From a virus: DNA of 20,306 nucleotides. A program made the position numbers and the translations under genes. The notes beneath the pieces are model-generated. The model saw nothing but the letters and a program-made list of their open reading frames with translations. It made no database searches and was not told the DNA's origin. Each line of letters opens with the position of its first letter. Position 1 is the stretch's first letter. Positions 15 through 18,023 of this stretch are shown here, one piece after another. The DNA lies in the IMG/VR virus record IMGVR_UViG_3300017763_000281, positions 1-20,306 of that record, one strand, 5' to 3'.

Positions 15-36
15 TAAAAAGGATAAATAACAATAC
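15..36 (+). promoter_or_regulatory. Putative late promoter, copy 1 (before small terminase)
   Basis: First of three copies of a 22-base element with invariant core AAAAGGATAAATA; the others are at 3541-3562 and 18002-18023. All three end in TAC and lie 40-65 bases upstream of the first start codon of a gene block. The ATAAATA part resembles the T4-type late promoter TATAAATA, which works without a -35 box, and no -35 box is seen here. Promoter function is inferred from recurrence and position; the transcription start is not known. Confidence 0.6.
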
Positions 37-78
37 CCACTACAGTAGGGAATAATACTGACTATACAGGAGAACGCA

Positions 79-552
79 ATGTCAACTGAAGAAAACCCAT
101 CAGAATCCACTAAAATTATACAAAAAGATGATGATATACTGATATCTGTGCCAGACGGAGCAGAAGAGCCCACTAGGCGACAACCCAAACGCAAATATGG
201 TGAACAAACAATAACAGGTATTATAGTAGGACAAGGCGATAACAAAAGAGTAGTCAGAATAGAAGATGTTAAAAAATTAGCAGAATTACATTTAACATAC
301 AAAGATATGGCGGCATATTTCGGCTGTAAAGAAAGCACATTTAAGGATCATTTCCATCAGGAAGTAGAAATGGGCAGACAGCGAACAAAACAAAGATTAA
401 TGAATGCTATGTTATATAATGCAGTAGAAAAGCATCAGCCCACAATACAGATTTGGATGTCGAAAAATCTCCTGGGTTGGACGGATGCACCGATAAATAA
501 AGATGATACGCAAGTATTACCGTGGTTAGATGATACACCGAATGTCTCCTAA
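79..552 (+). CDS. terS: Terminase small subunit (TerS)
   Basis: 157 residues, probably the DNA-recognition subunit of the packaging motor, which binds the packaging site and hands DNA to the large subunit. Residues 1-45 are polar and probably disordered. Residues 63-92 look like a helix-turn-helix (KLAELHLTYKDMAAYFG followed by KESTFKDHF). A charged helix follows (93-118), then the segment IWMSKNLLGW (125-134), a pattern common near the end of small terminases. The start is set by AGGAG at 69-73 just upstream of ATG 79. The large terminase follows after a 117-base structured gap, the usual order. The family match is by pattern and position only, since small terminases diverge strongly. Confidence 0.83.
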   Translation: MSTEENPSESTKIIQKDDDILISVPDGAEEPTRRQPKRKYGEQTITGIIVGQGDNKRVVRIEDVKKLAELHLTYKDMAAYFGCKESTFKDHFHQEVEMGRQRTKQRLMNAMLYNAVEKHQPTIQIWMSKNLLGWTDAPINKDDTQVLPWLDDTPNVS

Positions 553-589
553 AGTCCGTATATGGTATTAGAACTTTAGATTTCAAATA

Positions 590-673
590 ATGTTGCCAAA
601 CATATCGGTATTTAACCACAGATTGGGCCAGTATTCCCATTCTGGCCCAGTCACTTTAATGGGAAAGATATGA
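590..673 (+). CDS. Possible 27-codon leader ORF overlapping the terL start
   Basis: ATG 590 opens a 27-codon frame ending at TGA 671-673, which overlaps the terL ATG (670-672) in the ATGA arrangement. It runs through the hairpin at 621-652 and ends in MGKI. No Shine-Dalgarno sequence precedes ATG 590, so translation is unsupported apart from the ATGA overlap and its location. It may be chance. If translated, ribosomes would open the structure that could cover the terL ribosome-binding site. Confidence 0.15.
   Translation: MLPNISVFNHRLGQYSHSGPVTLMGKI
621..667 (+). promoter_or_regulatory. Hairpin / possible pseudoknot over the terL ribosome-binding site
   Basis: Bases 621-631 (GATTGGGCCAG) pair with 642-652 (CTGGCCCAGTC) as an 11-bp stem with one G-U pair and a 10-base loop. 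Loop bases 634-641 (TTCCCATT) are exactly complementary to 658-665 (AATGGGAA), which overlap the terL ribosome-binding site GGGAAAG (661-667). Together these make an H-type pseudoknot with 2- and 5-base connecting loops that would hide the site. The 5-base connector across an 11-bp stem is tight, so the stem may need to fray. A terminator is less likely because only three T follow the stem. Confidence 0.5.
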
Positions 674-1914
674 AGTTAACAGATGTACAAGCAGAAATAT
701 TAAATCATCCTGCCAGATTCAAGGTTGTAGCAGGTGGCAGAAGATTCGGCAAATCCTATTGTAGTATAGCCAGCCTGGCAAAACACGCCAGATTCCCCAA
801 CAGCAAATGTATGTATGTAGCACCTACTCACGGTATGTGCAGACAAATACTATGGCCTGATCTAAAAGAGCTTATGAAAGACCGCAAATGGGTTAAAAAA
901 ATAAATGAAAGCAATTTAGAGATAACATTAATCAACGGCAGTATCATTATGTTGCGTAGTGCAGATACACCTGACAGAGTGCGTGGACTGGGACTTTCAC
1001 ACATAGTTATAGATGAAGCCAGTGATGTAAGTGAAGAGATATGGACAGCAATCAGACCCACATTATCCGATACAAATGGTAGTGCTCTTATTATAGGCAC
1101 ACCCAAAGGGTATAACTGGTTTCGTGAGTTCTACGAAAATGCAAAACATCAGGCAGACTGGCATAGTTGGCAGTTCACTACAGCACAAGGTGGGCATGTA
1201 CCACTGGAAGAGCTGGAACAAGCAAAACAGGATCTGGATGACAGAACATACAAGACTGAGTATGAAGCTCAATTCGTCGACGCAAGTGGTGTGGTGTATT
1301 TCGCATTTGGCGACCATAACATAATGACTAAAGAAATAAAACAGGAAGCAGGTATACCATTGCATGTGGGCGGCGATTTCAATATCGATCCGATATCTGC
1401 TGTTATAGGGTATAAACATAGTGAAGGCATACACATATATGATGAAGTAGAAATATACAACAGTCATACCCAAGAACTAGTAGATGAAATAACTGAAAGA
1501 TATCCTAAAAGAAAGGTAGTGTTCTATCCTGATGCAAGTGGAGCCGCCAGAAAGACCAGTAGTGGTGGAGTCACAGACCACATCATACTTAAAAATGCTG
1601 GGTATGTGTTAAAGGTAGGCAGTATAAACCCTGCAATTAAGGATCGTATAGCCAGTGTAAATAGTGCCCTGCAGAGTAAAACAGGCGCAATTAAGTTGAC
1701 AATAGACCCTAAATGTGTTAGACTGATTGAAGCCTTAAGAAAGCAAACATACAAAGAAGGTACTAGACAACCTGAAAAGGGTGGTAGTAAAGATTACTCA
1801 CATATGTTAGATTCGCTAGGATATCTGGTAAACACATTATATCCATTAAATCTACAACATACTGGGTATAACAAACCGTTAAGGCGTAACACAGGACAAT
1901 TAATCAGGAGTTAA
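670..1914 (+). CDS. terL: Terminase large subunit (TerL), ATPase-nuclease
   Basis: 414 residues. This is the packaging motor that pumps DNA into the prohead and cuts it. The ATPase half shows Walker A GGRRFGKS (22-29), Walker B IVIDEA (112-117, D115 and E116) and the coupling motif IIGTPKG (141-147). The RuvC-like nuclease half shows GGDFNID (234-240, D236), YPDASG (286-291, D288) and YSHMLDSLGY (376-385, D381), the three expected metal-binding acidic residues. Length is typical of compact large terminases. ATG 670 follows GGGAAAG, a weak site possibly masked by the upstream structure. The frame is open upstream to 616 but offers no ATG, GTG or TTG start there. A string of small genes follows immediately. 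Confidence 0.97.
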   Translation: MKLTDVQAEILNHPARFKVVAGGRRFGKSYCSIASLAKHARFPNSKCMYVAPTHGMCRQILWPDLKELMKDRKWVKKINESNLEITLINGSIIMLRSADTPDRVRGLGLSHIVIDEASDVSEEIWTAIRPTLSDTNGSALIIGTPKGYNWFREFYENAKHQADWHSWQFTTAQGGHVPLEELEQAKQDLDDRTYKTEYEAQFVDASGVVYFAFGDHNIMTKEIKQEAGIPLHVGGDFNIDPISAVIGYKHSEGIHIYDEVEIYNSHTQELVDEITERYPKRKVVFYPDASGAARKTSSGGVTDHIILKNAGYVLKVGSINPAIKDRIASVNSALQSKTGAIKLTIDPKCVRLIEALRKQTYKEGTRQPEKGGSKDYSHMLDSLGYLVNTLYPLNLQHTGYNKPLRRNTGQLIRS

Positions 1915-1916
1915 AA

Positions 1917-2093
1917 ATGGCAAAACAAGTAGAATATGTAATAAGTGTAATAGAACCACAAGAGGAATACTTAAAGTATTTCCGTAACAGCACATTAGAT
2001 AACTGTAGGCAAAAAGCACAGGAATATTTATGGGGGTGTCCAGAAGGCACCAAATACATTTATATTACAACGAGGTTAGCAGATGCAGAATAA
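1917..2093 (+). CDS. Small protein of unknown function (58 aa)
   Basis: 58 residues beginning MAKQVEYVISVIEPQEEYL, starting 2 bases after the terL stop with AGGAG at 1906-1910 and a 6-base spacer, so translation is well supported. It is mixed alpha/beta in character, rich in Tyr and Glu, with two cysteines (C30, C41), and has no membrane segment or signal peptide. Its end overlaps the next gene by 11 bases. I do not recognise the family. It is the first of six small genes sharing the terminase transcript. Confidence 0.65.
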   Translation: MAKQVEYVISVIEPQEEYLKYFRNSTLDNCRQKAQEYLWGCPEGTKYIYITTRLADAE

Positions 2094-2331
2094 ACACTCA
2101 TTCAAAGTATGGGATAAACAAGGACAATATATGACAAAGTATACTACTGAAGAAGTATACAAAATAGTAGTCAACTATCCGCATACAAACAGAACATTAG
2201 AATTTATAGGCATGGATCGTGGCAGTTGCATACTGCAAGCCGAAGTTGCCAAAGAGGAAGGCGATACTGTTATGCTTATGGAGTCAGAAGATACAGTAAA
2301 ATTATTACAAAAGGAGAAAATAGAATTATGA
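2083..2331 (+). CDS. Small protein of unknown function (82 aa)
   Basis: 82 residues starting MQNKHSFKVWDKQGQYM. GAGG at 2072-2075 with a 7-base spacer supports ATG 2083, which lies inside the end of the preceding gene. The N-terminal half (FKVWDKQGQYMTKYTTEEV) reads like a small beta-rich fold. The C-terminal part is acidic and helical (VMLMESEDTVKLLQKEK). There is no membrane segment. The stop overlaps the next start as ATGA, suggesting coupled translation. Family not recognised. Confidence 0.65.
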   Translation: MQNKHSFKVWDKQGQYMTKYTTEEVYKIVVNYPHTNRTLEFIGMDRGSCILQAEVAKEEGDTVMLMESEDTVKLLQKEKIEL

Positions 2332-2519
2332 AATTACCAGAATATATGACAAAAGAGAGTACACACAAAACACCAGGTATTAACACAATGAGCATGATAG
2401 GATTAAGTCTTATGTGGGGCCATATGTTGAACCTTATATCATTATGGTTCTTACCATTAACAATAATGACTCTGTTAAGTGGATTTGGCAATGAAGTCAC
2501 AAAAAGAGATACACAATGA
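2328..2519 (+). CDS. Small membrane protein of unknown function (63 aa)
   Basis: 63 residues from ATG 2328, which overlaps the previous stop as ATGA; AAGGAG lies at 2311-2316, 11 bases upstream. The same frame extends upstream to ATG 2226, but that part has poor protein character and lies wholly inside the previous gene, so I reject the longer form. Residues about 20-53 are strongly hydrophobic (MIGLSLMWGHMLNLISLWFL then PLTIMTLLSGF), enough for one long or two short membrane helices, with charged ends. Size and topology would allow a holin-like or membrane-associated accessory role, but nothing in the neighbourhood (no endolysin) supports lysis. Confidence 0.6.
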   Translation: MKLPEYMTKESTHKTPGINTMSMIGLSLMWGHMLNLISLWFLPLTIMTLLSGFGNEVTKRDTQ

Positions 2520-2779
2520 GTACACCAAAAGATAACATTCCAGAACGGAATACATCACAATGGAAAAAGAACGAAAAGGCCATTAATGATAACCCTGTGT
2601 TAAAACAAGCCAGAGATACAGCAGAAGGATTAGAAAAACCTGCACACAAATACAAAAGCAGTAGTGGTAATTGGCATGGCGGCAAGGGCAGTAGACCCAG
2701 AGTAGATACCAGTTCAGAACAATATAAAGATAATTTTGACAGAATATTTAAGCAAGGAAAGTATAAAAATGACAAATGA
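2516..2779 (+). CDS. Small hydrophilic protein of unknown function (87 aa)
   Basis: 87 residues from ATG 2516, overlapping the previous stop (ATGA). It has no strong ribosome-binding site of its own, so coupling is likely. It is very polar, rich in Lys, Asn, Ser, Asp and Gly (for example SSSGNWHGGKGSRPRVD), probably largely disordered, with a short C-terminal helix (YKDNFDRIFKQGKYK). No membrane segment or recognised motif. The low-complexity, basic character could suit nucleic-acid or partner binding, but that is a guess. Confidence 0.6.
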   Translation: MSTPKDNIPERNTSQWKKNEKAINDNPVLKQARDTAEGLEKPAHKYKSSSGNWHGGKGSRPRVDTSSEQYKDNFDRIFKQGKYKNDK

Positions 2780-2984
2780 TGTAACAGAAGTAAAAGGCGG
2801 TACCTGGGTTAAATATCTGTACAATACAGTTATACCTTTCGGCACAATTAAAAGTAAACAATTTATGGTGATTAAACAATTTGCAGATACAGTAAGTAAT
2901 ATAGATGCTAGTATAAAAAACCACGCAATGAAAACAGGTGCAATATCCTGGGAGATAACAGATGAAAGCGATCCACAAGTATAA
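2769..2984 (+). CDS. Small protein of unknown function (71 aa)
   Basis: 71 residues from ATG 2769, preceded by AGGAAAG with a short spacer. An upstream in-frame ATG at 2736 exists but lies deeper in the previous gene and has a poorer ribosome-binding site. The sequence starts MTNDVTEVKGGTWVKYLYN and is beta-rich in the first half, with a helical stretch (KQFADTVSNIDASIKNHAM) in the second. It overlaps the previous gene by 11 bases and the next by 23 bases. Family not recognised. Confidence 0.6.
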   Translation: MTNDVTEVKGGTWVKYLYNTVIPFGTIKSKQFMVIKQFADTVSNIDASIKNHAMKTGAISWEITDESDPQV

Positions 2985-3204
2985 TAGTAAAACCAGAGAA
3001 GGTGCCAGACGCATAGCACAGAGTATGGGATATAGATACAGCATATATGATGATAAAAATATGATAGCCTTATTATTTAGAGCAGGCATACAGATGCCCA
3101 ATATAGATTACACAGCCGCTAGTAAACAAACCTACACAGAAGAACTGCCTTTTGAGAGTAATCCAGATCTAGTTGCAGACAGTACAGAAACAATAAAATT
3201 ATAA
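2962..3204 (+). CDS. Small protein of unknown function (80 aa), last of the terminase cluster
   Basis: 80 residues from ATG 2962, supported by GGGAG at 2950-2954 with a 7-base spacer. The N-terminus is basic (MKAIHKYNSKTREGARRIAQ) with a short helix, and the C-terminal third is acidic. There is no membrane segment or recognised motif. It overlaps the previous gene by 23 bases. The transcript probably ends at the two terminators starting 171 bases downstream. Confidence 0.6.
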   Translation: MKAIHKYNSKTREGARRIAQSMGYRYSIYDDKNMIALLFRAGIQMPNIDYTAASKQTYTEELPFESNPDLVADSTETIKL

Positions 3205-3218
3205 GTTATAAGTCCTGT

Positions 3219-3359
3219 GTGTCCGTCAAACAGGATACCGCCATTTCCTTTAACTCAGGCGCACAGGCAACCGATAAATACTGGTACATTATAAACACAG
3301 ACGGTAACAAAGGAGTAGTGTCCGTTAACGCCGTCGGTAATAAAGATGGGTCTTTATAA
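3219..3359 (+). pseudogene. Short protein-like frame, possible gene remnant (46 codons)
   Basis: An open frame from GTG 3219 to TAA 3357-3359 reads VSVKQDTAISFNSGAQATDK, then a WYIINTDGNKGVVSVNAVG segment, which looks like real beta-structured protein. Its codons favour C in the third position (GTC, TCC, ACC, GCC, AAC), unlike the surrounding genes. No Shine-Dalgarno sequence or ATG start exists, and the frame stays open upstream into the previous gene in a different phase. It may be the 3' remnant of an acquired gene, or a small gene with an unusual start. Confidence 0.3.
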
Positions 3360-3374
3360 TAATGTGTTTCCTTT

Positions 3375-3405
3375 AAGCCGGATAAGTCAAGCGATCCGGC
3401 TTTTT
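3375..3405 (+). terminator. Rho-independent terminator T1
   Basis: A perfect 9-bp stem, AAGCCGGAT (3375-3383) with ATCCGGCTT (3394-3402), has a 10-base loop and a T run at 3401-3405. It lies 171 bases after the last small gene and closes the terminase transcript. Confidence 0.88.
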
Positions 3406-3413
3406 CTTGACTC

Positions 3414-3443
3414 AAAAAAATACCCACATAGTGCGGGTATTTT
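3414..3443. terminator. Bidirectional terminator T2
   Basis: The stem AAAATACCC (3417-3425) pairs with GGGTATTTT (3435-3443), with seven A at 3414-3420 on one side and a T-rich run after the stem. It can act on both strands and is the better terminator on the minus strand (seven T). It follows T1 by about 10 bases, giving tandem termination ahead of the portal promoter. Confidence 0.8.
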
Positions 3444-3461
3444 GTTTAACCGTTGTTTAAC
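3442..3461. repeat. Direct repeat TTGTTTAAC x2, operator-like
   Basis: TTGTTTAAC occurs at 3442-3450 and 3453-3461, an 11-base period (one helical turn). It overlaps the end of terminator T2 and lies about 80 bases upstream of the second promoter motif. Tandem sites on the same DNA face fit protein binding, but nothing identifies a binder. Confidence 0.3.
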
Positions 3462-3540
3462 ATCGGTGTAGCAAGTTAGGACAAGCAATATTAGTTATAA
3501 TATGCTTTAATGATTTGTCAACAAAAGTGATCAAAATGGC

Positions 3541-3562
3541 TAAAAAGGATAAATAGTATTAC
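3541..3562 (+). promoter_or_regulatory. Putative late promoter, copy 2 (before portal)
   Basis: Second copy of the AAAAGGATAAATA element, ending GTATTAC. It stands after two terminators and 40 bases before the portal start, the position expected for a promoter of the head and tail genes. There is no -35 box at normal spacing. A short palindrome, TTTGT-CA-ACAAA (3514-3525), lies 15 bases upstream and could be a regulator site. Confidence 0.65.
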
Positions 3563-3594
3563 CTTGCAGGGAAACAAATAACTGGAGATAGATT

Positions 3595-5313
3595 TTGGCC
3601 AGCGATAATTTATATAAATTCATAACACAAACACATCCTATGTATCAGCGATATGAGGATGCCTGGAGACTTAATGTTAAGTCATACTGGGGCGGACCAG
3701 AGTATAAGAATGGACATTACTTAAAAAGGTATGCTACAGATAGTAGTACACCCAGTGATATAGTCAGAACACAAGAGATGGACAGCGATGGCGCTCCTAC
3801 TGGCAGATACTCACAGGCAGTGATAGCCAATAGTACTTCAGAAGCAGAAAATCCAGATTATATGGAAAACAACTTCTATGCAGAGAAGTTAGATCAGGTA
3901 GCCAATTACCCATACACCAGACTTTATATTTCAGAATATAATGCTATGTTGTTTAACAGTCTACCCAGCAGAACATTACCAGACGATCCAGATATACAAA
4001 AATTCAGTAACGACTGTGATGGCGAGGGCAACAGCCTTAATGAATTTTGGAGCATGGTAGATATCTATACAACAGTATTTGGTGTTGTATGGGTAAGTTG
4101 TATCAAGTATACTGATAGTGAATACCCTTTATGGAAATGGCATTCACCATTAGATGTCACTAACTGGAGTTACAAATACAACAACAAAGGTGAACTAGAA
4201 TTAAAAGAAATAGTTATTCGCGTAAGCGATGAACCAGAATTACAAATATATCAACACATCACACAAGATGTAATAGAAACCATATATGTACCTGTATCAG
4301 AAGATTTTGATCCAGCCAATTTACCAGAAGAGGCTGTTTATTATCAGGAAACAGGACAAGAAGACGCAGAGTATTACAAAATTGTCCAGGAAAACACTCT
4401 TGGAGACATTTATGTAAGACCTGTGTATCAGAGTAACAAGATCTACAATGGAGTAGGTCATACTAATATCTTTGATATCGCTAATATTCAGCGGAGCATA
4501 TATTCACTTCTCGGAGATGCCTATTCGTGCTTTACATATGGATCACACCCTGTAAACATTATCGATTCGGAAACCGCAGATATGAATGACGGCGCCATTT
4601 CTGCTGAACCCGGCGCAGTGATACGAGTTAATGCATCACTGACAGGCACCCCAGCCTATGTTTATGAATTTAGATCTCCATCTTTGGATAGTATAACAGA
4701 GATTAGAGAATTTATTAATCAAAACATAGAAAAAATGAATGAAGTAGCAATGATCCGTAGTGATGAACTACTTAAATCAAGCCGTTCAGGTGTCCAGATA
4801 CAACAAATGGACAGCAAGTTAGATGCATTTGTTCGCAGGAAAGCAATTAGCCTGGAAAATGCAGAATACAATATGTGGCAAATGTGGTATGCCTGGATGG
4901 ATACAGCAATGCCAGAAGATCTATCAGTAAGTTATAACAGAGTGTATACACAAAAAGGATTAGATCAGGAAATATCAGAAGTAAACAAAATAATGAGTCT
5001 GTTAACAGATTATCAGGACAGATTTATGCAGGGAACAACAGGCTTTACAGCAGAGCAGTTCCCAACACAAGAACAAGCAGAAGCCAGAGCACAACAATTA
5101 GGTGGATCTGGTAGCCATTCGCATACAGACGAAAATGGCGAAACAATTTATATGCCGTTCAGTACACATGAACAGTACGAACAGGCATTAGAGTCACAGG
5201 ATCAGGGTGTTGATTATGAAGAGGACACTGATTTTGAGAAAGATGTTAGAGAACAATTAAGAGAAAGGATGAAGCAACTGTTAAGTAGCACATCCAGTAA
5301 CAATAGTCTTTAA
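3595..5313 (+). CDS. Portal protein
   Basis: 572 residues, probably the ring at the capsid vertex through which DNA enters and to which the neck attaches. The assignment rests on position (after terminase, directly before scaffold and major capsid), length and character: an alpha/beta body, then a long helical region around residues 360-425 (SLDSITEIREFINQNIEKMN onward) as in portal stem and wing, and an acidic helical C-terminus. The start is TTG 3595, set by GGAG at 3584-3587 with a 7-base spacer; no ATG lies nearby in frame. A histidine-bearing segment, GSHSHTDENGETIYMPF (506-522), lies near the end. Confidence 0.82.
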   Translation: MASDNLYKFITQTHPMYQRYEDAWRLNVKSYWGGPEYKNGHYLKRYATDSSTPSDIVRTQEMDSDGAPTGRYSQAVIANSTSEAENPDYMENNFYAEKLDQVANYPYTRLYISEYNAMLFNSLPSRTLPDDPDIQKFSNDCDGEGNSLNEFWSMVDIYTTVFGVVWVSCIKYTDSEYPLWKWHSPLDVTNWSYKYNNKGELELKEIVIRVSDEPELQIYQHITQDVIETIYVPVSEDFDPANLPEEAVYYQETGQEDAEYYKIVQENTLGDIYVRPVYQSNKIYNGVGHTNIFDIANIQRSIYSLLGDAYSCFTYGSHPVNIIDSETADMNDGAISAEPGAVIRVNASLTGTPAYVYEFRSPSLDSITEIREFINQNIEKMNEVAMIRSDELLKSSRSGVQIQQMDSKLDAFVRRKAISLENAEYNMWQMWYAWMDTAMPEDLSVSYNRVYTQKGLDQEISEVNKIMSLLTDYQDRFMQGTTGFTAEQFPTQEQAEARAQQLGGSGSHSHTDENGETIYMPFSTHEQYEQALESQDQGVDYEEDTDFEKDVREQLRERMKQLLSSTSSNNSL

Positions 5314-5320
5314 TATTAGG

Positions 5321-5371
5321 TAGGTCACCTAGGTAGGGAGGCCTGAAGTTATAATACGATAACTTCTATCG
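5321..5371 (+). promoter_or_regulatory. Structured leader of the scaffold gene
   Basis: The 75-base gap before the scaffold gene is rich in inverted repeats: TAGGT-C-ACCTA (5321-5331) overlapping the palindrome ACCTAGGT (5327-5334); a perfect 8-bp hairpin GAAGTTAT (5345-5352) with ATAACTTC (5359-5366); and an alternative hairpin CGATA (5357-5361) with TATCG (5367-5371). The last two share bases and cannot form together. A strong ribosome-binding site, AAGGAG (5377-5382), follows. The role could be mRNA stability or translation control. There is no T run for termination. Confidence 0.4.
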
Positions 5372-5388
5372 AAAAAAAGGAGTAAGAT

Positions 5389-6231
5389 ATGACAGAACAA
5401 GTCGATACGGCAGTTCAACCCGAAAATGTTGAACCGGTAACAGATTCCGTAGAGCCTGTAGTAGAGCTCAATAAATCTGATATGCCAACACCAGAATACA
5501 AGGATGGCAAATGGTATTTGGAAGGAAAGCGTTTCTATACCAGAGACGAAACCAACCAAGTCACAGCAAGAGCAAAGAATGATGCTGTAAGCAACATTCT
5601 TACAGAGCTGGATGTAGATAGTATAGATCAAGTGAAGGATGTTATTACCACACTTAAATCTACTGAACTAACAGAAGAAGGACAAAGTTCTTTAGATGTT
5701 AAGGCACTCAAACAGGCAGTAGCCCGTAGAGAAGCCACAGTTGAAGATTTAACAATGGAAGTAAGCAACTTAAAACGAGACCTATTACTTAAAGATCATT
5801 TAGGCAGTCTGCAATCACACATGCCAGGTGCATGGAGTGTAGAGCAAAGACAAGCAGTAGTTGATCTTATGCAAGCCAGAGGTATGTTCGCTGTGGAAAA
5901 CGATACTTTTCAATTGAAAAGTGGAGATGACTATTTGACTGTTGATGGCATAAAACCAGACTATGAAGCCGCTGTTTCAGTGGTAGGAAAAGGACTGGGA
6001 TTGCCATTTGGTAAGAAAGGTGTTGATGTAGTGAACGCTGAGCAAACAGCAAATGACGAATCGGGCAGATCACCCAAAGAGTTAAATGCTGATAAATTGC
6101 AAAGCGATCCAGAATATAGAGCGGCCTATACCTCTTTAAGAAATAGTAACTTAAATTGGAACAGGTCAGACATAACACATAATATGGTTATGAAACAGGT
6201 GGAGAAAGTCAGAAGAGCCAGAAAAGGCTAG
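5389..6231 (+). CDS. Capsid scaffolding protein
   Basis: 280 residues lying between portal and major capsid genes, the usual place of the internal scaffold that guides prohead assembly. It has an acidic, proline-containing N-terminus (1-35), a predicted coiled coil at about 105-140 (LKQAVARREATVEDL followed by heptad-like MEVSNLKRDLLLKDHL), and a basic C-terminal helix (KQVEKVRRARKG, 269-280) of the kind scaffolds use to bind coat protein. No protease motif (Ser-His or ClpP-like) is visible, so it does not look like a fused protease-scaffold. AAGGAG at 5377-5382 supports the start. Confidence 0.78.
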   Translation: MTEQVDTAVQPENVEPVTDSVEPVVELNKSDMPTPEYKDGKWYLEGKRFYTRDETNQVTARAKNDAVSNILTELDVDSIDQVKDVITTLKSTELTEEGQSSLDVKALKQAVARREATVEDLTMEVSNLKRDLLLKDHLGSLQSHMPGAWSVEQRQAVVDLMQARGMFAVENDTFQLKSGDDYLTVDGIKPDYEAAVSVVGKGLGLPFGKKGVDVVNAEQTANDESGRSPKELNADKLQSDPEYRAAYTSLRNSNLNWNRSDITHNMVMKQVEKVRRARKG

Positions 6232-6273
6232 ACTTTTTCTTTATTAAATTGTAGACAAATATAGGAGAATATA

Positions 6274-7194: not shown

Positions 7195-7211
7195 TATAAC
7201 AGGGAGATATA

Positions 7212-7784: not shown

Positions 7785-8176
7785 TGAGTATCAGAGATAA
7801 TCTTATTACCCAAATCACTACTAATTTAAGTGGTCATAGTCAATTTGGAATAAGCACAGAACTGCCGTTTAGCACTTCAGATACACCATTGTATATGAAG
7901 AATATGAGAACGGTGTTCGTGGATGAATTACAGGAAGATGTAACAGAATTGTATCCAGTACTGGATGGCAATGATGTTATGCAAACAGAGTCTACATGTG
8001 TAGCATATCTGGCAGTTGATGCAAAAAATCAGCCCACAGATATACAAACAGTGGTAGCAAATCTGCTAGTAGCAAGAAACGGTGTAACAGCCGGTATCCG
8101 TGCTAGTGATGTTACAACTGAGTTAGAAGATGATGTTATATTATATAATATAGAGTATAACTTTACAACTGTTTAA
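7784..8176 (+). CDS. Putative tail terminator / tail completion protein
   Basis: 130 residues between the connector-like gene and the tail tube gene, the slot of lambda gpU-type tail terminators that cap the tube and join it to the head. The start MSIRDNLITQITTNLSGH fits the N-terminal helix of such proteins, which is followed by beta strands and a helix (PTDIQTVVANLLVARNG). It is translationally coupled to the upstream gene through TAATG. It could instead be a neck stopper; the sequence alone does not settle which. Confidence 0.58.
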   Translation: MSIRDNLITQITTNLSGHSQFGISTELPFSTSDTPLYMKNMRTVFVDELQEDVTELYPVLDGNDVMQTESTCVAYLAVDAKNQPTDIQTVVANLLVARNGVTAGIRASDVTTELEDDVILYNIEYNFTTV

Positions 8177-8191
8177 TATTAGGAGAAAGAA

Positions 8192-8689: not shown

Positions 8690-8714
8690 CAATACTGATC
8701 CGTTATTAAAACAC

Positions 8715-9134: not shown

Positions 9135-9138
9135 AGAT

Positions 9139-9698: not shown

Positions 9699-9987
9699 AG
9701 TAAGTAAAAAGGATTTGATTAAGTTGCAGAAGCAAATTAACAAAGCAATAGATACTTCTACGGAAGAAACATACGAATTCTTTAAGAAAAAGACTCCTGT
9801 AAAAGGTGGTAATGCTAGGCGTAATACAAAATACAAAGAAAGATCTACAAAAACAAGTATTATAGGTGATTATCCTTATTCAGGCAGACTGGATGAGGGT
9901 TATAGTAAACAAGCACCCAGAGGTATGACTAAACCCAGTCTCCGTGAGCTGGAAAAGGTTATTACAAAACAATTTAGGAAAATATAA
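9679..9987 (+). CDS. Small basic tail protein, HK97 gp10-like or minor tail Z-like
   Basis: 102 residues from ATG 9679; a GTG at 9667 would add four residues but has no better ribosome-binding site. The protein is very basic (KKDLIKLQKQINKAI near the start, KQFRKI at the end). The middle, FFKKKTPVKGGNARRN, followed by SIIGDYPYSGRLDEGYSKQAP, recalls gp10/gpZ-type proteins, which often carry a 'P(V)..G.LR.S...Y...ledGt' arrangement. Such proteins usually lie between connector and tail terminator, so the position between chaperone and tape measure is unusual. It overlaps the chaperone by 20 bases and the tape measure start by TAATG. Confidence 0.55.
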   Translation: MAKASVKVSKKDLIKLQKQINKAIDTSTEETYEFFKKKTPVKGGNARRNTKYKERSTKTSIIGDYPYSGRLDEGYSKQAPRGMTKPSLRELEKVITKQFRKI

Positions 9988-12299
9988 TGGCAAAAATAGA
10001 TGCACAATTAGTTCTAGATACTAAACAAGCCAAAAAAGGTATAGATTCGTTAAAAGGAGCATTCAAAGGATTGGTTGCCGCGGCATCTATACAACAATTT
10101 GTTTCATTAGGTGATGAATTTACACAGATTACCAACAGATTAAAATCAGTAAGTAATAGTACAGAAGAAGCCAGTAGTGCATTTAATTTAGTTAAAAAGG
10201 TAGCAGGAGAGACCAGAAGTGGACTGGGTCCAGTTGCAGATCTATTTACAGATTTAACTATTGCCACAGAGGAAATGGGTTTAAGCCAGCAAAGAGTAGC
10301 CGATGTTGCAGGCACATTCAGTAAAGCCTTAAAAATATCAGGTGCAGATGCAAACGCAAGTAGTGGTGCTATCAGACAGTTCGGTCAAGCATTAGCAAGT
10401 GGTGTGTTGCGTGGTGATGAATTTAACAGCATAATGGAAGCCAACCCGGCGTTCATGCGTGAAATAGCAAAAGCATTAGAGGTAAATGTTGGCCAATTAA
10501 GAAAGATGGCTGCAGAAGGCCAATTAACATCAGATGTTTTAGTTAAAGCCACAGAAGAAATAGGTGGTGCTATTGATGAAGATTTTGGTAAAACAGTAGC
10601 CACAGTTGGTGAAAGTATTACAAACCTCAGAAATAACTTTATAGAATTTATAGGTAAAATACAGGAAAAAACAGGTGTATTTACTTTAATGAGTAATGCC
10701 ATTAATGCAGTAGCAGACAACTTAAACATAGTAGTAGCCATATTAGCCGCCGCATTTGGTGCCGCGATTGTAGGACAAATTATAACAGTCACTAAAGGTA
10801 TTATAGCATTAGGTAAGTCATTCCAGGGTGCGGCAAAAGGTGCCGCTATAATGCAAGCCATTATAGGTGGTCCAGCCGGTGTAGCCAAAGTGTTAGGTGG
10901 ACTTGTAGCAGGTGGTGGTGCATTATACTTAATGGACCAGATGTTCGAAGACACAGCAGAAAGCACAGACAAGATCAATAAAGAATTAGATGATGCGGCA
11001 AAAAATGCAAAAGATCTTGAAGGATCAGGAAAAAAAGCATTAGAACAAAGTAAAGAACAAGTACAAGCAGAAAAAGATGCCAAAACAGCACGAGATGAAG
11101 CCGCAAGAATACTAGAAAACCAATTAGAAGATTATAAAGCAATATCAGCCGAATTAGAAGTAGGCAGAGCAGAATTTGAAGCACAACTAGGTTTACAAAA
11201 CGATTTATTAGTTGCAAGTGATGTACAAAAACAAGTTATAAAAGATATAGCAGATATAGAATCAGATAGAGCAGATGAATTAAGAAATCTAGCCTCTTTA
11301 ACAAAAATTGATGCTGATGACAGATTAACTAAAGAAAAAGAAATTAATGATGAATATGATCAAAGAATAGATTTAATCAAAAAACAATCACAAGCACAAA
11401 TGACAAGTGCTACAAATACTTTAATTGTAGGTATGTTCGAGGAGCAATTAGATGCCGCAAAGGCTTTTTCGGATCAATTACAATTACTTAAAAGAGTACA
11501 ATCTGGTGCTACAGAGGAATCTATAAGAAATTATCAGGAAGAAAATACAGCACTCAGAGAGTACGAAAGTCAACGCAGAGAAATAATGAAGAAATTCTTT
11601 GGTGATGATAAAGACTTTATGAATCCAGTCACTAGAAAAAGCCTTTATAATCAGTTAAGTGATGTAGATAAACAAGGTTATGATAATCAATTGGATGCCG
11701 CAGAAGAATATTATACATCATTTATAATGCTGTTAAAACAATTCCAGATAGAACGACAAACATTAGAAGATGCTGGTAGAGAAACAACTTTTGGACAAGG
11801 ATTTGCAGAACAATTTAAGGAATTCGAAAAAAATCTAAAAGATATGGCATCATATGGAGCAAATATATTTAACACAATGACACAAGGTTGGGAAAATGCA
11901 TTCGTTAAATTCGCAGAAACAGGTAAATTATCATTTAAGGATTTATTCAAAACATTAATGACAGAAATTATTAAAATGATGGCAAACAAATTGTTCCTAG
12001 CACTCTTTATGCCAGGATCAGGAGTATTTGGTTCATTATTTGCAGGCTTCTTTAACAATGGTGGATCAATACCAGCAGGCAAGATAGGCATCGCAGGCGA
12101 AAACGGCCCCGAAATCGTAAAAGGGCCAGGAACAGTTATCAGTACCAGAGATTCAGCACAAATGCTGGGTGGTGGTGTAACTAATGTATACTATAGAATA
12201 GAGGCTACGGATCCTGCCTCATTCCAAGCTCAGGTTGCCAGAGATCCAGAATTTATATATAATGTCACTAGAGCAGGTGCCAGAAGAATACCAGGATAG
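9987..12299 (+). CDS. Tail tape measure protein (lambda gpH-like)
   Basis: 770 residues. It sets tail length and occupies the tube before DNA ejection. Residues 131-185 (containing ALASGVLRGDEFNSIMEANP and VNVGQLRKMAAEGQLTSDVL) match the conserved N-terminal tape-measure block of lambda-like phages. Hydrophobic segments at about 246-269 and 286-317 may insert in the host inner membrane. Residues 330-640 are a long charged helical region (Lys/Glu/Gln-rich). The C-terminal motif GGSIPAGKIGIAGENGPE (692-709) is typical of this family. At the usual 0.15 nm per residue, a tail of up to about 115 nm is expected. No internal peptidase or lysozyme motif is seen. Translation is coupled to the upstream gene. 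Confidence 0.95.
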   Translation: MAKIDAQLVLDTKQAKKGIDSLKGAFKGLVAAASIQQFVSLGDEFTQITNRLKSVSNSTEEASSAFNLVKKVAGETRSGLGPVADLFTDLTIATEEMGLSQQRVADVAGTFSKALKISGADANASSGAIRQFGQALASGVLRGDEFNSIMEANPAFMREIAKALEVNVGQLRKMAAEGQLTSDVLVKATEEIGGAIDEDFGKTVATVGESITNLRNNFIEFIGKIQEKTGVFTLMSNAINAVADNLNIVVAILAAAFGAAIVGQIITVTKGIIALGKSFQGAAKGAAIMQAIIGGPAGVAKVLGGLVAGGGALYLMDQMFEDTAESTDKINKELDDAAKNAKDLEGSGKKALEQSKEQVQAEKDAKTARDEAARILENQLEDYKAISAELEVGRAEFEAQLGLQNDLLVASDVQKQVIKDIADIESDRADELRNLASLTKIDADDRLTKEKEINDEYDQRIDLIKKQSQAQMTSATNTLIVGMFEEQLDAAKAFSDQLQLLKRVQSGATEESIRNYQEENTALREYESQRREIMKKFFGDDKDFMNPVTRKSLYNQLSDVDKQGYDNQLDAAEEYYTSFIMLLKQFQIERQTLEDAGRETTFGQGFAEQFKEFEKNLKDMASYGANIFNTMTQGWENAFVKFAETGKLSFKDLFKTLMTEIIKMMANKLFLALFMPGSGVFGSLFAGFFNNGGSIPAGKIGIAGENGPEIVKGPGTVISTRDSAQMLGGGVTNVYYRIEATDPASFQAQVARDPEFIYNVTRAGARRIPG

Positions 12300-12307
12300 G
12301 AGAAACA

Positions 12308-12964
12308 ATGAGTCTACAAACAATTATAGATAATGCAACATATTTAGACATAGATATACGCAAACAATCTGGCAGTACACTGAGCAGAAGTGGGCATTAT
12401 AAAACAGCAGACAGAAATGTAAATGTTTATTCATTCAAGGTGGGTATGCACGAAGGTTTAACATACAGCACAAACCGTGGTGTTATACAAGACATTTATA
12501 CCACAGGTGCTACAAACGAGAGTAATATAAGTCTTAACAATAATAGCAATATGAATTACTTAACAGCATATCAGGGAGATATATCTGGTGCAGAATTAAA
12601 TAATATTTCTGTAAATGGTGTATTTGGTGCAGAGATCTATATAGACCAAACAAGTGCTACAGGTAGTGGCACACTATTTAAGAAAGGTGACTTTATACAA
12701 CCCAAAGGTAATACTGATACATACAGATATCCTTATCAGGTAACTTCAGATGTTGCATTTAACAGCAGTAGTAGTAATACAACAGTAAGTGTACACAGAC
12801 CCGTTCTAAGCCAGTCTGGCGTTGCCTTAACAAGCGGTGGTATAAAAGTAGGTAAGGATGTAAGATGGCATGTTAAAATGTTAACATTACCAGAATACAG
12901 TATAGTACCACACGACAGAGTAGCATTTAGCGATGACTTTACACTGATAGAGGTTATTACATAA
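12308..12964 (+). CDS. Minor tail protein, distal-tail position
   Basis: 218 residues following the tape measure, where lambda gpM-type or distal tail (Dit-like) proteins are encoded. The character is beta-rich, with SRSGHYKTADRNVNVYSFKV (27-46), a segment around LFKKGDFIQPKGNTDTYRYPY (123-143) and VHRPVLSQSG. The end, HDRVAFSDDFTLIEVI, recalls a family of minor tail proteins in tailed marine and enterobacterial phages. This is recognition from memory of the pattern, not a search. AGGAG precedes the ATG. Its stop overlaps the next start (TAATG). Confidence 0.6.
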   Translation: MSLQTIIDNATYLDIDIRKQSGSTLSRSGHYKTADRNVNVYSFKVGMHEGLTYSTNRGVIQDIYTTGATNESNISLNNNSNMNYLTAYQGDISGAELNNISVNGVFGAEIYIDQTSATGSGTLFKKGDFIQPKGNTDTYRYPYQVTSDVAFNSSSSNTTVSVHRPVLSQSGVALTSGGIKVGKDVRWHVKMLTLPEYSIVPHDRVAFSDDFTLIEVIT

Positions 12965-13635
12965 TGGCAACAACTATAACATCTGTACAAGACCAGCACA
13001 TCAGCAGTTGTCTGCTTATAGATCTCACATTAGATGGTACCACATACTACCTGAGTAGTGCTTATAAGCCAGTCACATACAATACAAATACCTACACAGA
13101 GTTAGGTTCTTTTCTGAGTGTGAATGACTTTACAGAAGACATAAAAACAACAAATGGTGATATCAGTCTCACATTAAGTGGTATACCCAGCGAACAAGAT
13201 TATTTAAGTTCAATACTAACCACAAAAATTAAAGGTGGTAATGTGTTTATTCGTAGAGGTTTCTATAATATCACTACACACGAATTAGATACAACTCAGG
13301 TATTCACAAGATTTGCAGGAGTTATAACTAACTTCGTTATACAGGAAGACTTTACACCAGGTGCAGTACTACAAAATAGTGTAACAGTTACCTGTGCTAG
13401 TATAACATCAATATTAGAGAACAGAATAAGTGGACAGCGAACAAATCCAGAAGACAGAAAGAGATTGTTCCCTAACGATTTGGTATTTGACAGAGTGCCA
13501 CTATTATATAACATAGCATTTGATTTTGGTAAAGAATATAATTCAGGCGGTGGCGGAGGCTACGGCGGAGGCGGTGGCGGTGGAGGCCGTGGTGGCGGAG
13601 GCCGTAATCGTAGACAGGCTACAATAGAAAAATAA
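12964..13635 (+). CDS. Minor tail protein (gpL/hub-like position) with Gly-rich C-terminus
   Basis: 223 residues, second gene after the tape measure, in the slot of lambda gpL or baseplate-hub proteins that link tube and tip. Residues 1-180 are beta-rich, with DISLTLSGIP and FAGVITNFVIQEDFTPG stretches and TVTCASITSILENRISGQRT, a pattern seen in tail-tip proteins of this position. Residues 195-214 are GGGGGYGGGGGGGGRGGGGR, then NRRQATIEK, a flexible glycine/arginine tail. The tail is coded with GGC/GGA and CGT while the rest uses AGA for Arg, so it may be a later addition. The stop overlaps the next start (TAATG). Confidence 0.6.
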   Translation: MATTITSVQDQHISSCLLIDLTLDGTTYYLSSAYKPVTYNTNTYTELGSFLSVNDFTEDIKTTNGDISLTLSGIPSEQDYLSSILTTKIKGGNVFIRRGFYNITTHELDTTQVFTRFAGVITNFVIQEDFTPGAVLQNSVTVTCASITSILENRISGQRTNPEDRKRLFPNDLVFDRVPLLYNIAFDFGKEYNSGGGGGYGGGGGGGGRGGGGRNRRQATIEK

Positions 13636-14090
13636 TGAAAGTAAGAAACGCACAAATACAAGACTATGATGATATAAGACGCCTTATGATTGATTTTGCC
13701 AACTTTAATCCAGTTGAAGATTTACAAAATCCCAAATACGATTATCAGCATGTTAACGCAGTTATAGATCATATTCTTAAAACAGGAATAGCTCTGGTGT
13801 GTGAGCATAATGGCAGAGTTATAGGTATGTTATTAGCAACTATACAGGGAGATTTATGGCTACCACATGTTAAACGCATGACAGAAGTAGCATGGTGGGT
13901 AGAGGACGATTACAGAGGTACCACAGCAGGTGCCAGATTATTAAACAGATATGTTGCCATAGGGTTAGAAGCAAAAGACAAAGGACATATAAGTTCCTTT
14001 ACATTAACAACACTAGCAACTACACCTGATCTTAAATTAGACCAAAGAGGTTGGGAAGCAATAGATTATAATTGGTGTTATAGAGGTTAA
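13635..14090 (+). CDS. GNAT-family N-acetyltransferase
   Basis: 151 residues with a GNAT layout: an N-terminal strand and helix (MKVRNAQIQDYDDIRRLMID), a beta strand with GRVIGMLLATI (60-70), then motif A, EVAWWVEDDYRGTTAGARLL (84-103), where acetyl-CoA phosphate is bound. The usual R-x-x-G-x-G reads R94-G-T-T-A-G99, so the first glycine is Thr. The end, RGWEAIDYNWCYRG, fits a closing strand. It would transfer an acetyl group to a small molecule or protein; the substrate is unknown. It sits where lambda-like phages often encode the NlpC/P60 (gpK) peptidase, translationally coupled to the tail gene before it. Confidence 0.8.
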   Translation: MKVRNAQIQDYDDIRRLMIDFANFNPVEDLQNPKYDYQHVNAVIDHILKTGIALVCEHNGRVIGMLLATIQGDLWLPHVKRMTEVAWWVEDDYRGTTAGARLLNRYVAIGLEAKDKGHISSFTLTTLATTPDLKLDQRGWEAIDYNWCYRG

Positions 14091-14093
14091 ACA

Positions 14094-16217
14094 ATGGCAG
14101 TATTTTCAGCAATCGCATCAGCAGTATCTACATTCTTAATCACAGCAGGAGGAGGCTTTCTAGGTAGTTCACTAATAGGTACAGCAATTGCCACAGCAAC
14201 AGGATATATAGTTGCAGGTGGTTTAGCCGCCGCTACAGCCAGAGCATTAGGTGTATTTGAACCACCTTCATTTGATACAAGCGATCCTGGTGTAACAATA
14301 CAATTACCTCCTGGTACAGATAACAAATTACCCATATTATATGGTAATGCATTTACAAGTGGACCTATATTTGATGCCGCTATAAGCAATCAGAATGACA
14401 CAATGACATACTGTATAGCATTAAGTGAAGAAACGCAAACAGGAACATTTAGTTGTAGTAAAGTGTTTATGGCAGACGATGAGCTGGTATTTTCTGGTAA
14501 TACCGTAGTAAGACACATAAACCCAAACCAGAGTAACACAACAAATTATGCAGGTAATGTAAGATTAAACATTTATGCAGGTGGTAGTAGTGGTTCAGAT
14601 GTTATATTCCCTACATCAGGCACAGGCAGTAGTACACCAGCAAGTAGTATAGTACCTCACTGGGGAGCCAACCACACAGCAAATAACATGGTATTTGCCG
14701 TGTTACAAATAGATTATGATGCAGAAAATGGATTGGTGGGTTTACCACAAATGTCGTTCAAAATGAAAAACACATTAAGCAATCCTGGTGATGTATTATA
14801 TGACTATCTTACATCAACACGATATGGAGCAGGACTCACAAATGCAGAAATAGATGTAAATAGTGTCACAGGCACAGCAAATACACAAATGAAAGGTTAT
14901 AGTGCTGAGCAAGTAAATTACACAAACCAGGCAAATGCCAGTGTAACACACGACAGATATGAGATTAACGGTGTGTTAAGTACATTCGATACATCTAAAA
15001 CAAACATAGATAAAATATGTCAGGCAAGTGCTACATTCTTTACATACAATGTAAAGCAGGGTAAATTCAGTGCTATTCCAAACAGAGCAATAAGCAGTAC
15101 AGAAAAAGCCAATTGCTTGGTGTATAATGACGATAACATAGTAAGCAAAATAGATATCAGTAGTACAGAATTATACAATTTATACAATGCTGTAGAAGTT
15201 GAATTTGCAGATAACACCAGAAAAGATCAGACAAATACAGTACTGGTAGAAACACCCGGCAGTGACAGAAACGCAAATGAGCCAGATAACAGATTAAAAT
15301 ATCGTGTAGATCTCATTAATGATAATATGCGAGCAGAAGCATTAGCAAACATAGACTTAAATCAGAGCAGAGTGGGTACAGTTATACAATTTGAAACAGA
15401 TTTTAGCGGTATGCAAACAGATGTAGGTGATGTGGTAAAAATAACAAACAGCCTGTATGGCTGGTCAGATAAATTATTCAGAGTGTTAAGAACTGTAGAA
15501 CGACAAAGTGAAACAGGTATGATTACAGTACAAATGAGTGCTATAGAATATACAGACGATTATTATACATTACCTGTAAGTACAGAAACACCAGATATAG
15601 GGTTTATAGATATGCCCAAATTACCTGTAATAGGACCTATCTTTATACCAGGATTGTATGAGGGTATATATAGTAATGTAGATCTATTGCCTGGTGCTAC
15701 ATTTGGTAATGTTATTACAAACCCAGCAATGAAAACATTTGGTGCAGGTGTTCAGTTAGCAGATAATCCGCAACAAGACACAGGAACTCATCCTACACCC
15801 ACAACTACAGTAGGAGATTTAATAGATCCTGAATCTTATGATATAACAGATGCTGATATAGGCGATTATGAATTAACAGCAGGTGGACAACTGGTAGGCA
15901 CATTAAGTAGTGCATATGATTTTAGTTATCAGGGTAATGTGTTGGTAAGTTGGGCAAATGCTACAACAACAGCAACTAAATCATTCAGTAGCACATTAAA
16001 TTACAATAACTTTCCTGCTACAACACCGCCTCCACCAACATCATTAGCACTAAAAGTTAATTTAGATCCCACAGCACATTTTGGAGCAAGTGCGGCTGAT
16101 ATGAAACCACAAACAGCAAATGTTGTATTAAGAGGTAAAGCAAATTCAGGCATAACTGGTGCAGAGTTCAGTAATTTAGGATATCAGTTCCTCAGAGTGA
16201 CAAAAGGTGAGAAATAA
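14094..16217 (+). CDS. Tail tip / central attachment protein (J-like)
   Basis: 707 residues, the large protein at the tail tip that contacts the host. The N-terminus (about 5-50) is hydrophobic and Gly/Ala-rich (LGSSLIGTAIATATGYIVAG), like lambda gpI, here joined to the J-like body. Next comes a segment with DPGVTIQLPPGTDNKLPILY, a body with TRYGAGL and repeated beta units, and a central part with SSTELYNLYNAVEVEFAD typical of tip proteins (phage tail protein 3 / hub-like). The C-terminal part is beta-rich and low in Cys. At 707 residues it is shorter than lambda gpJ, and receptor-binding domains probably lie in downstream genes. AGAGG precedes ATG 14094. Confidence 0.8.
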   Translation: MAVFSAIASAVSTFLITAGGGFLGSSLIGTAIATATGYIVAGGLAAATARALGVFEPPSFDTSDPGVTIQLPPGTDNKLPILYGNAFTSGPIFDAAISNQNDTMTYCIALSEETQTGTFSCSKVFMADDELVFSGNTVVRHINPNQSNTTNYAGNVRLNIYAGGSSGSDVIFPTSGTGSSTPASSIVPHWGANHTANNMVFAVLQIDYDAENGLVGLPQMSFKMKNTLSNPGDVLYDYLTSTRYGAGLTNAEIDVNSVTGTANTQMKGYSAEQVNYTNQANASVTHDRYEINGVLSTFDTSKTNIDKICQASATFFTYNVKQGKFSAIPNRAISSTEKANCLVYNDDNIVSKIDISSTELYNLYNAVEVEFADNTRKDQTNTVLVETPGSDRNANEPDNRLKYRVDLINDNMRAEALANIDLNQSRVGTVIQFETDFSGMQTDVGDVVKITNSLYGWSDKLFRVLRTVERQSETGMITVQMSAIEYTDDYYTLPVSTETPDIGFIDMPKLPVIGPIFIPGLYEGIYSNVDLLPGATFGNVITNPAMKTFGAGVQLADNPQQDTGTHPTPTTTVGDLIDPESYDITDADIGDYELTAGGQLVGTLSSAYDFSYQGNVLVSWANATTTATKSFSSTLNYNNFPATTPPPPTSLALKVNLDPTAHFGASAADMKPQTANVVLRGKANSGITGAEFSNLGYQFLRVTKGEK

Positions 16218-16603
16218 TGTATAGAACTATATATAACAAAGATAGTGGTAAAATTATTATATCCAGAAAAATAAGTGATGAAATGTTAGCAACCAGATTA
16301 GCAACATATACACATCAGGCAAGTATAGATGGTTATACTGACGATATACAAAATAAAAAAGTAGACTTAAACACTTTAACTGTAGTAGATGATGTGCAAG
16401 AGGAAGATGTAGTTGCCTGGATGCGTGAAAGACGCAGATTATTATTAGCAGAGTGTGACTGGACCGTAGGAGCAGATAGTCCTCTGTCAGATAGTAAAAA
16501 AACAGAATGGCAAACATACAGACAAGCATTAAGAGATTTACCTGCAACATATCCAGATGTCACAGACAGAAATCAAATTAATTTTCCCACTAAACCGGAG
16601 TAA
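16217..16603 (+). CDS. Phage tail assembly chaperone (APC type), fibre-associated
   Basis: 128 residues. The C-terminal half, with RERRRLLLAECDWTVGADSP (70-89) followed by LSDSKKTEWQTYRQALRDLP (90-109) and ending NFPTKPE, matches the tail assembly chaperone family (Pfam Phage_tail_APC) found beside tail-fibre genes, where it helps fold or attach fibres. The N-terminal half is a small beta/helix unit specific to this phage. TAATG overlap couples it to the tip gene, and the putative adhesin starts 3 bases after its stop, so it probably serves that adhesin or the fibre downstream. Confidence 0.82.
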   Translation: MYRTIYNKDSGKIIISRKISDEMLATRLATYTHQASIDGYTDDIQNKKVDLNTLTVVDDVQEEDVVAWMRERRRLLLAECDWTVGADSPLSDSKKTEWQTYRQALRDLPATYPDVTDRNQINFPTKPE

Positions 16604-16606
16604 AGT

Positions 16607-17992
16607 ATGAGTCAGCAATTTGGATGGTTTAAGAACAAATATCAATCAGGAGGAGGTGCAACATTTACTCCTAGTGTAAATCTTAATGAAGTTATAACAG
16701 CAAATGGTTTTCAGTATCAAGCAACAATAACCAGTAACATACCAAATGCAAATCTATTAGTCTCAATGCGTGGCACTATACCAGAAAGTAATATAGTGGG
16801 TGGTAGTAGAAATACAAGTATTACAACAGATTCTTTCGGTACTGCCACAGTTATAAAAGATTTCGAAACAGCAACCAGTAATACTACATTTGATTTTCAA
16901 ACCAGTGTTTATAATCCAAATAAATTACCAGATCTAAATGAAGCCACAATGGCACAAGGAAATGTTGTCACACTGAGCGGAACAGCAAACAAACGAATAG
17001 ATGTAGCAAGTTACAGTGGTAATGTTACAGATATAGCAAAAAGCAATATAACTGTGGGTTCTGATACAATGACTTTATATCAATTCACAGTTCCTGGCAC
17101 ATTTACATTTGATATTACAAGTGTAGCCAATGTAAGTAAAGAAGTACAAGTATTTGCAGTAGGTGCCGGTTCAGGCGCGGCAAACACAACACCAGTTACT
17201 TTTGGAAAAGGCGGTGGTGGTGCTGGAGGTAATCTAGTGACAGGTAATTTAACATTTACAGATGCCAGAATAGTGTGTAATGCTACTATAGGTGCAGGTG
17301 GTGTTACAAATACTGACACAAATGGCGGCAGAGGTGGTGGTAGTGGTATATTCTTACACACAGATGCAAATGTACTAGTTGCAGGAGCAGATGCGGCGCA
17401 TACAGGTTTAGGAGAAGGTCGTATGGGCGAACTTGGCCAAGGTGGTTCTGGTGGCGGTGTTATGATGAGTGCTGGAGGCGGTGGTGCTGGAGGCGGAAAC
17501 GAATTAGATTACAGTGATCCTTCAAGACTTCCCTTCCCTCAAGCAAAAGGAGGATATTTATTAGGTGGCGGTGCAACACATACAACATTTGCAAATGTTA
17601 TATTTAAGGGTGGTGTAGATAGTAATTTATCTATTAATTTTTCACCTAGTATAGGCAATACCGTGCCTTTAAGTTATGCAAATACTTCTGTATCTGGAAA
17701 TCTAAATATTATGGGAGAATTAGCAGGATCAGTAGGCAGTAACACAGGTAATATAGGTCTAGGTGGTGTAGATTTTATACATGATTTCACAGGATCTAAT
17801 GTAAGTTATGGCGGTGGTGGCCCTGGCCAGGCACAAGGTGTTGCATTCAGTAGATTCTATAGTGGTTATGGTGCAGGAGGATATGTAGGATTAAATCCTA
17901 CTGATCCTGGTAAAAATGTAAATGTAGACGGTAAAAATGGCATAGTAATGATAAGACATATACAAAACGGTACCCGTGCCCTGAGTATGTAG
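16607..17992 (+). CDS. Glycine-rich putative tail adhesin / receptor-binding protein
   Basis: 461 residues. Residues 1-150 are a beta-rich attachment part. Residues 155-455 form a glycine-rich domain of the phage and prophage type: a strand pattern YQFTVPGTFTFDITS then VQVFAVGAGSGAA, followed by runs GKGGGGAGGN, NGGRGGGSG, GELGQGGSGGG, SAGGGGAGGG, LGGGATH and GGGGPGQ. In phage S16 gp38 such runs form packed polyglycine helices that present variable loops to the receptor. The loops between the runs (for example YSDPSRLPFPQAK) would be the specificity part. It follows the APC chaperone gene and precedes the fibre block. The function is inferred from sequence type and context. Confidence 0.72.
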   Translation: MSQQFGWFKNKYQSGGGATFTPSVNLNEVITANGFQYQATITSNIPNANLLVSMRGTIPESNIVGGSRNTSITTDSFGTATVIKDFETATSNTTFDFQTSVYNPNKLPDLNEATMAQGNVVTLSGTANKRIDVASYSGNVTDIAKSNITVGSDTMTLYQFTVPGTFTFDITSVANVSKEVQVFAVGAGSGAANTTPVTFGKGGGGAGGNLVTGNLTFTDARIVCNATIGAGGVTNTDTNGGRGGGSGIFLHTDANVLVAGADAAHTGLGEGRMGELGQGGSGGGVMMSAGGGGAGGGNELDYSDPSRLPFPQAKGGYLLGGGATHTTFANVIFKGGVDSNLSINFSPSIGNTVPLSYANTSVSGNLNIMGELAGSVGSNTGNIGLGGVDFIHDFTGSNVSYGGGGPGQAQGVAFSRFYSGYGAGGYVGLNPTDPGKNVNVDGKNGIVMIRHIQNGTRALSM

Positions 17993-18001
17993 CAAATCTG
18001 C

Positions 18002-18023
18002 TGAAAAGGATAAATAGTAATAC
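18002..18023 (+). promoter_or_regulatory. Putative late promoter, copy 3 (before fibre block)
   Basis: Third copy of the AAAAGGATAAATA element, ending GTAATAC, starting 10 bases after the adhesin stop. It lies ahead of a structured leader, a mini-ORF and the structural and fibre genes. No terminator precedes it, so it would boost rather than isolate this block. Confidence 0.62.

Follow-up and report, generated by a model that had tools for sequence, protein, structure and literature searches.

The window, IMG/VR record IMGVR_UViG_3300017763_000281 taken whole (20,306 bp), belongs to a group of small tailed phages that are known solely from environmental viral DNA. Almost every gene lies on the plus strand, and the gene order runs from the terminase subunits through the portal, capsid, tape-measure and J-like tail-tip genes to the fibre region. 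Bases 1-30 encode RPKKYKKDK*, the C-terminus of a conserved protein of about 100 aa. The genes and promoter-like sites are as follows.

15-36, plus strand: late-type promoter 1, packaging unit (GATAAATA at 22-29, N4, TAC at 34-36; predicted +1 at A35)
79-552, plus strand: terminase small subunit, TerS (PHROG 309, E 3.5e-5)
670-1914, plus strand: terminase large subunit, TerL (PHROG 2, E 9.5e-50)
3268-3287, plus strand: fourth late-type site, GATAAATACTGGTAC (match at 3273-3287; predicted +1 at A3286)
3541-3562, plus strand: late-type promoter, head/tail unit (GATAAATA at 3548-3555, N4, TAC at 3560-3562; predicted +1 at A3561)
3595-5313, plus strand: portal protein (PHROG 145, E 2.2e-30)
9987-12299, plus strand: tape-measure protein, followed by lambda-like tail genes
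18002-18023, plus strand: late-type promoter, fibre unit (GATAAATA at 18009-18016, N4, TAC at 18021-18023; predicted +1 at A18022)
18079-18120, plus strand: possible minicistron or leader ORF of 13 aa, MKKLPNNNIKRRS*, by direct reading (its stop overlaps the next start, TAATG)
18120-18626, plus strand: fibre unit, first gene (168 aa; matched no family)

The 13-mer AAAAGGATAAATA is present in the window as three exact copies, at 17-29, 3543-3555 and 18004-18016, all on the plus strand, and exact copies occurred in 0 of 100 dinucleotide shuffles of the window. Each copy is followed at a constant distance by a TAC (34-36, 3560-3562 and 18021-18023), and the genes downstream of the three elements are TerS at 79, the portal at 3595 and the fibre-region gene at 18120. 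The original prediction of three near-identical elements with a conserved TAC tail, each ahead of a gene block, was therefore confirmed, but it missed a further site: GATAAATA-N4-TAC matched four positions in the window (0.03 expected), including 3273-3287, where CAACC replaces the AAAAG ahead of GATAAATA. This fourth site was conserved among aligned relatives. When three mismatches to the 13-mer were allowed, no enrichment was detected in the window (27 vs. 21.8 expected); what carries the signal is the exact copies and where they are located. Late-type promoter 1 overlaps the 3' end of the upstream ORF (1-30) and has an A/T block at 7-11; those of the head/tail-unit promoter lie at 3533-3537 and 3543-3546. 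A minicistron like that at 18079-18120 is possible in only a few relatives, as judged by promoter-to-gene distance.

Relatives were collected by portal, TerL and J protein searches and one pattern scan. The loci counted upstream of the portal, fibre, TerS, major capsid protein (MCP), tape-measure and J genes were found by protein rather than by motif, and the statistics over 93 contigs, 52 sites and intergenic 7-mers also drew on a few long pattern-scan records (e.g., G004 and G022). All 61 non-redundant portal loci had ATAAATA upstream of the gene, as did 29 of 30 relatives at the fibre-region gene and 18 of 26 at TerS; several of the eight TerS loci that lacked the site were distant relatives or had a wrongly called start. 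The motif was rare ahead of the other genes counted (MCP 1/55, tape measure 0/18, J 1/35; together 2/108). Presence at the portal, fibre and TerS genes and near-absence before MCP, tape measure and J is the pattern that promoters starting a transcription unit would leave. Across the family, this supports the claim that the packaging, head/tail and fibre units each begin at such an element. Over 93 non-redundant contigs, GATAAATA-N4-TAC occurred 38 times in sense, once in antisense and once reversed. ATAAATA was also the commonest 7-mer in the family's sense-strand intergenic DNA (167 copies, compared with 17 in antisense), and the runner-up isomer with the same composition had 74 copies in sense intergenic DNA. 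A scatter of the motif at random sites inside genes, which had been named as evidence against promoters, was not seen, as 47 of the 52 ATAAATA-N4-TAC sites were intergenic and nearly all were in sense. As is characteristic of T4-type late promoters, the sites precede units of late virion genes and have the same orientation as those genes. From the observed sequence, position, orientation and conservation, we infer promoter function and a start site for these elements; the three repeats and the fourth site are very probably late promoters.

Late transcription in T4 is the textbook case in which promoters are linked to a sigma of the phage and to the clamp used in replication. The T4 late core spans -13 to -6, with ATAAATA at -12 to -6 and T/purine at -1/+1; position -13 is variable in relatives, and there is no -35 conservation (PMC1524935, PMC2988020). 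The T4-type core (TATAAATA) was found at the portal, fibre and TerS loci, with G at -13 as a variant. A family consensus was built from 108 sites aligned on the core. Because the core served as the anchor, it is necessarily constant in this consensus; its invariance is supported independently by the portal loci, all of which have an exact core (61/61). G occupied -13 in 100 of the 108 sites, T occupied -1 in 65 and a purine +1 in 93, and initiation is predicted at the purine 6 nt past the core. Two A/T blocks, at -28 to -24 and -18 to -15, are separated by approximately 10 bp (about one helical turn), with an A/T content of 94-99% at -27/-26, and no TTGACA-type -35 box was present at the late sites. 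The family therefore shares with the gp55/gp33/gp45 system of T4 the ATAAATA at -12 to -6, the lack of a TTGACA box, the late virion genes and, as a prediction, the purine start 6 nt past the core. In contrast, it has G instead of T at -13, siphovirus-like tail genes, no detected gp55, clamp or polymerase in the relatives, and two phased A/T blocks where T4-type late promoters have no conserved upstream sequence; in the same alignment comparison, these blocks were absent from the late sites of T4 and of the T4-like pelagiphage HTVC008M. The proposed likeness to T4 late promoters was borne out for the core and the predicted geometry, whereas neither G(-13) nor the A/T blocks are characteristic of T4. 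The AAAAGG that had been taken as an added 5' half of the element is confined to the subclade of the window and was rejected as a general half-site; it is the form that the second A/T block and G(-13) take in this subclade.

Phage HTVC008M (KC465899) also carries NATAAATAGTANTA sites with very close downstream bases and a strong sense bias (ATAAATA 30 sense vs. 4 antisense). However, its genome is 147 kb in size, with annotations for a late sigma, a clamp, a loader and a polymerase, and its sites lack both G(-13) and the A/T blocks. Coliphage rV5 is reported to have a T4-late-like motif, TggTAaAAtA, in the absence of gp55, gp33 and gp45 homologs, although this is a looser motif in eight copies in one phage, whereas the family core is exact and conserved (PMC3606486). 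Enterobacteria phage CBB likewise has ATAAATA before structural genes and no detected gp33 or gp45 homologs, but it is a jumbo myovirus and possesses a gp55-like sigma (PMC5259590).

The DNA adjoining the sites contained the following leaders and other structured non-coding segments.

36-60, plus strand: TerS-transcript 5' leader (hairpin in relatives, CAGTA-GCGA..-TACTG)
3205-3407, plus strand: structured conserved non-coding segment with covarying helices, which holds the fourth late-type site
3562-3570, plus strand: short inverted repeat CCTTGCAGG, adjoining the predicted portal start (palindrome here in many relatives)
18032-18055, plus strand: fibre-transcript 5' leader hairpin with covariation, GTTATATGCG-AACT-CGTATATAGC

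Compensatory changes were observed at all 10 pairs of the fibre leader hairpin, and 94.5% of cells were paired compared with 62.8% in shuffles (0 of 500 as high); the signal was lost on sliding the partners. The fibre leader is very probably transcribed because this covarying hairpin sits 3' of the fibre promoter. The TerS leader stem in relatives showed covariation at two of five pairs, and the window copy deviates from it, with an alternative CCCACT/AGTAGGG pairing possible. Covarying leaders just downstream of the sites support transcription from them. The palindromes at the portal promoters of relatives are loop-free, varied in sequence and located at about +1 to +16, with a mean arm of 3.67 vs. 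1.97 when shuffled and arms of at least 4 in 35 of 61 loci; these may act as operators or hairpins. The segment at 3205-3407 ends in an intrinsic-terminator-like hairpin (about 3375-3405), and its covariance model also matched more distant relatives, more weakly, whereas Rfam matched nothing anywhere in the window, this segment included. On the minus strand, a near-perfect sigma70-type promoter at 3521-3494 (TTGACA-N16-TATAAC; TATAAT in G004) points left toward a hairpin (about 3416-3442) that resembles a bidirectional terminator. A small minus-strand RNA from this promoter is possible.

The search for T4 late machinery included three genomes that are apparently near-complete (G001, G003 and G006), of which G003 (29,101 bp) and G006 (34,273 bp) have end overlaps of 185 and 202 bp, respectively, and are probably complete and circular; the sequence of G001 starts over at about 27.3 kb. 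The gp55 families PHROG 234 and 12791 had no match among the 25 records searched from the family, one of which was the window, although the T4 control was found, and a profile HMM of ten gp55s run over six-frame translations recovered the controls only. It is possible that gp55 has diverged past detection in the family. Searches for the clamp, loader and polymerase using phmmer with single HTVC008M queries, which distant homologues could escape, returned only the positive control. Among the scanned non-structural proteins, no transcription or replication family was matched except by ParB-like/methyltransferase proteins, and none matched the single-subunit RNA polymerase family in this general scan. 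The gp55-like sigma and sliding clamp that the original prediction considered necessary were thus not detected in the apparently near-complete relatives, and this failure to detect T4 late-machinery proteins suggests that an unrecognized phage or host factor probably reads the sites. Two candidates for gp55 were rejected, namely, the p102 family (about 100 aa), whose repeated weak matches fell outside the sigma domain (hhalign about 0.1), and an 86-aa ORF (E 0.02), which is a conserved short protein after TerL. A provirus search for the host found no portal relative in genome_contigs. One relative (L206, 16727-18103) encodes a fusion of ParB_N and an N6/N4 DNA methyltransferase between late promoter 1 and TerS, which is absent at the corresponding place in the window.

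Two neighboring genes, p167 and p173, were kept in all three of these genomes. Relatives of p167 were present in G001, G003 and G006, and those of p173 adjoined p167 in G001 and G006, where the profile matches were weak (probability 90 and 56). The predicted structure of p167 is a double helix-turn-helix (pLDDT 77.5), and that of p173 (pLDDT 83.9) is a putative new fold, without a fold match. Neither protein showed a relation to gp55 (hhalign probability about 0.1) or matched a solved structure; hence, their role as early proteins acting on the late promoters is a guess based on where they lie and how well they are conserved. Perfect sigma70-type promoters (TTGACA-N16/17-TATAAT) were identified in G003, G004 and G006, outside the late units. 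The one in G003 (L206, 13889 onward) contains GATAAATA in its spacer and lies upstream of the genes that encode p167, p173 and a 259-aa protein, an arrangement that suggests a switch. In G001, the p167 gene is located on the minus strand, with a minus-strand GATAAATA upstream.

The sites are best explained as late promoters of T4-like geometry that are read by host RNA polymerase together with a late-acting, phage-made factor other than gp55, for which p167 and p173 are the best candidates; we rate this explanation somewhat above even odds. A non-gp55 phage factor is the likeliest but unproven reader of the sites. Under this explanation, GATAAATA would serve as a -10-type element at -13 to -6 with no TTGACA-type -35 box, preceded by the A/T blocks at -28 to -24 and -18 to -15, one helical turn apart, and initiation would occur at the purine 6 nt past the core. 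Transcripts of the packaging, head/tail and fibre units would start at these sites and carry leaders with short hairpins. We further infer the timing and the factor: host RNA polymerase with a phage-made specificity factor that is not recognizably gp55 probably reads the sites late in infection, and such a late-acting factor is probable because relatives also have perfect sigma70-type promoters outside the late units. A more specific version is tentative, namely, that p167 and/or p173, unrelated in sequence to gp55, redirects host RNA polymerase without a clamp or a replisome of its own, with the phased A/T blocks replacing the -35 contact. If true, it would represent an independent solution to T4-type late transcription in small siphoviruses, with p167 and/or p173 as the factor.

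Alternatively, a host alternative sigma may read the sites, and the phage would need no factor of its own. Neither gp55 nor any other recognizable sigma was detected in the apparently near-complete relatives, and the core does not vary among diverse phages, which is what recognition by a constant host factor would predict; to our knowledge, however, no sigma recognizes GATAAATA without a -35 box, and control of late timing would still be needed, which renders this alternative unlikely. It is improbable that the sites are ordinary sigma70-type promoters whose -10 box, ATAAATA, simply has unusual flanks, since the core is exact at 61 of 61 portal loci, G(-13) occurs in 100 of 108 sites, and canonical TTGACA-N16/17-TATAAT promoters were found elsewhere in relatives with no TTGACA at the late sites, even though the genome is AT-rich, the composition is -10-like, and the A/T block near -26 could replace a weak -35. 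We consider it equally improbable that a highly diverged gp55 is hidden among the unassigned early proteins and that the T4 mechanism is retained in full. Such a protein would be small and highly diverged, as gp55 is (PMC2988020), and the core and GTANTA downstream bases match the pelagiphage annotated with a late sigma, but the six-frame profile search was negative while its positive controls were found, hhalign gave about 0.1 for p173, p167 and p102, and the clamp, loader and polymerase were not detected. The combination of a T4-like late core with undetected replication and late-transcription genes could also reflect late machinery borrowed from a co-infecting T4-like helper phage. Virophages and their giant virus provide a parallel (cf. 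PMC11998528). Nevertheless, the full set of virion genes is present, and G(-13) and the phased A/T blocks are missing in both T4-like phages tested, so that we consider a helper highly improbable.

A family that has the T4-late core, but in which none of the associated genes are detected, would uncouple this promoter from the machinery known to read it and would provide two small candidate proteins to test, p167 and p173. Phage DSL-LC06 (L228), which comes from a lake, is 30 kb long and encodes a related TerL, has seven ATAAATA on the gene strand vs. one on the other and possibly uses the same system without the TAC tail. In addition, contigs L154, L191, L196, L156 and L201 of the motif scan contain AAAAGGATAAATA-NNANTAC upstream of genes that were not identified as family relatives.
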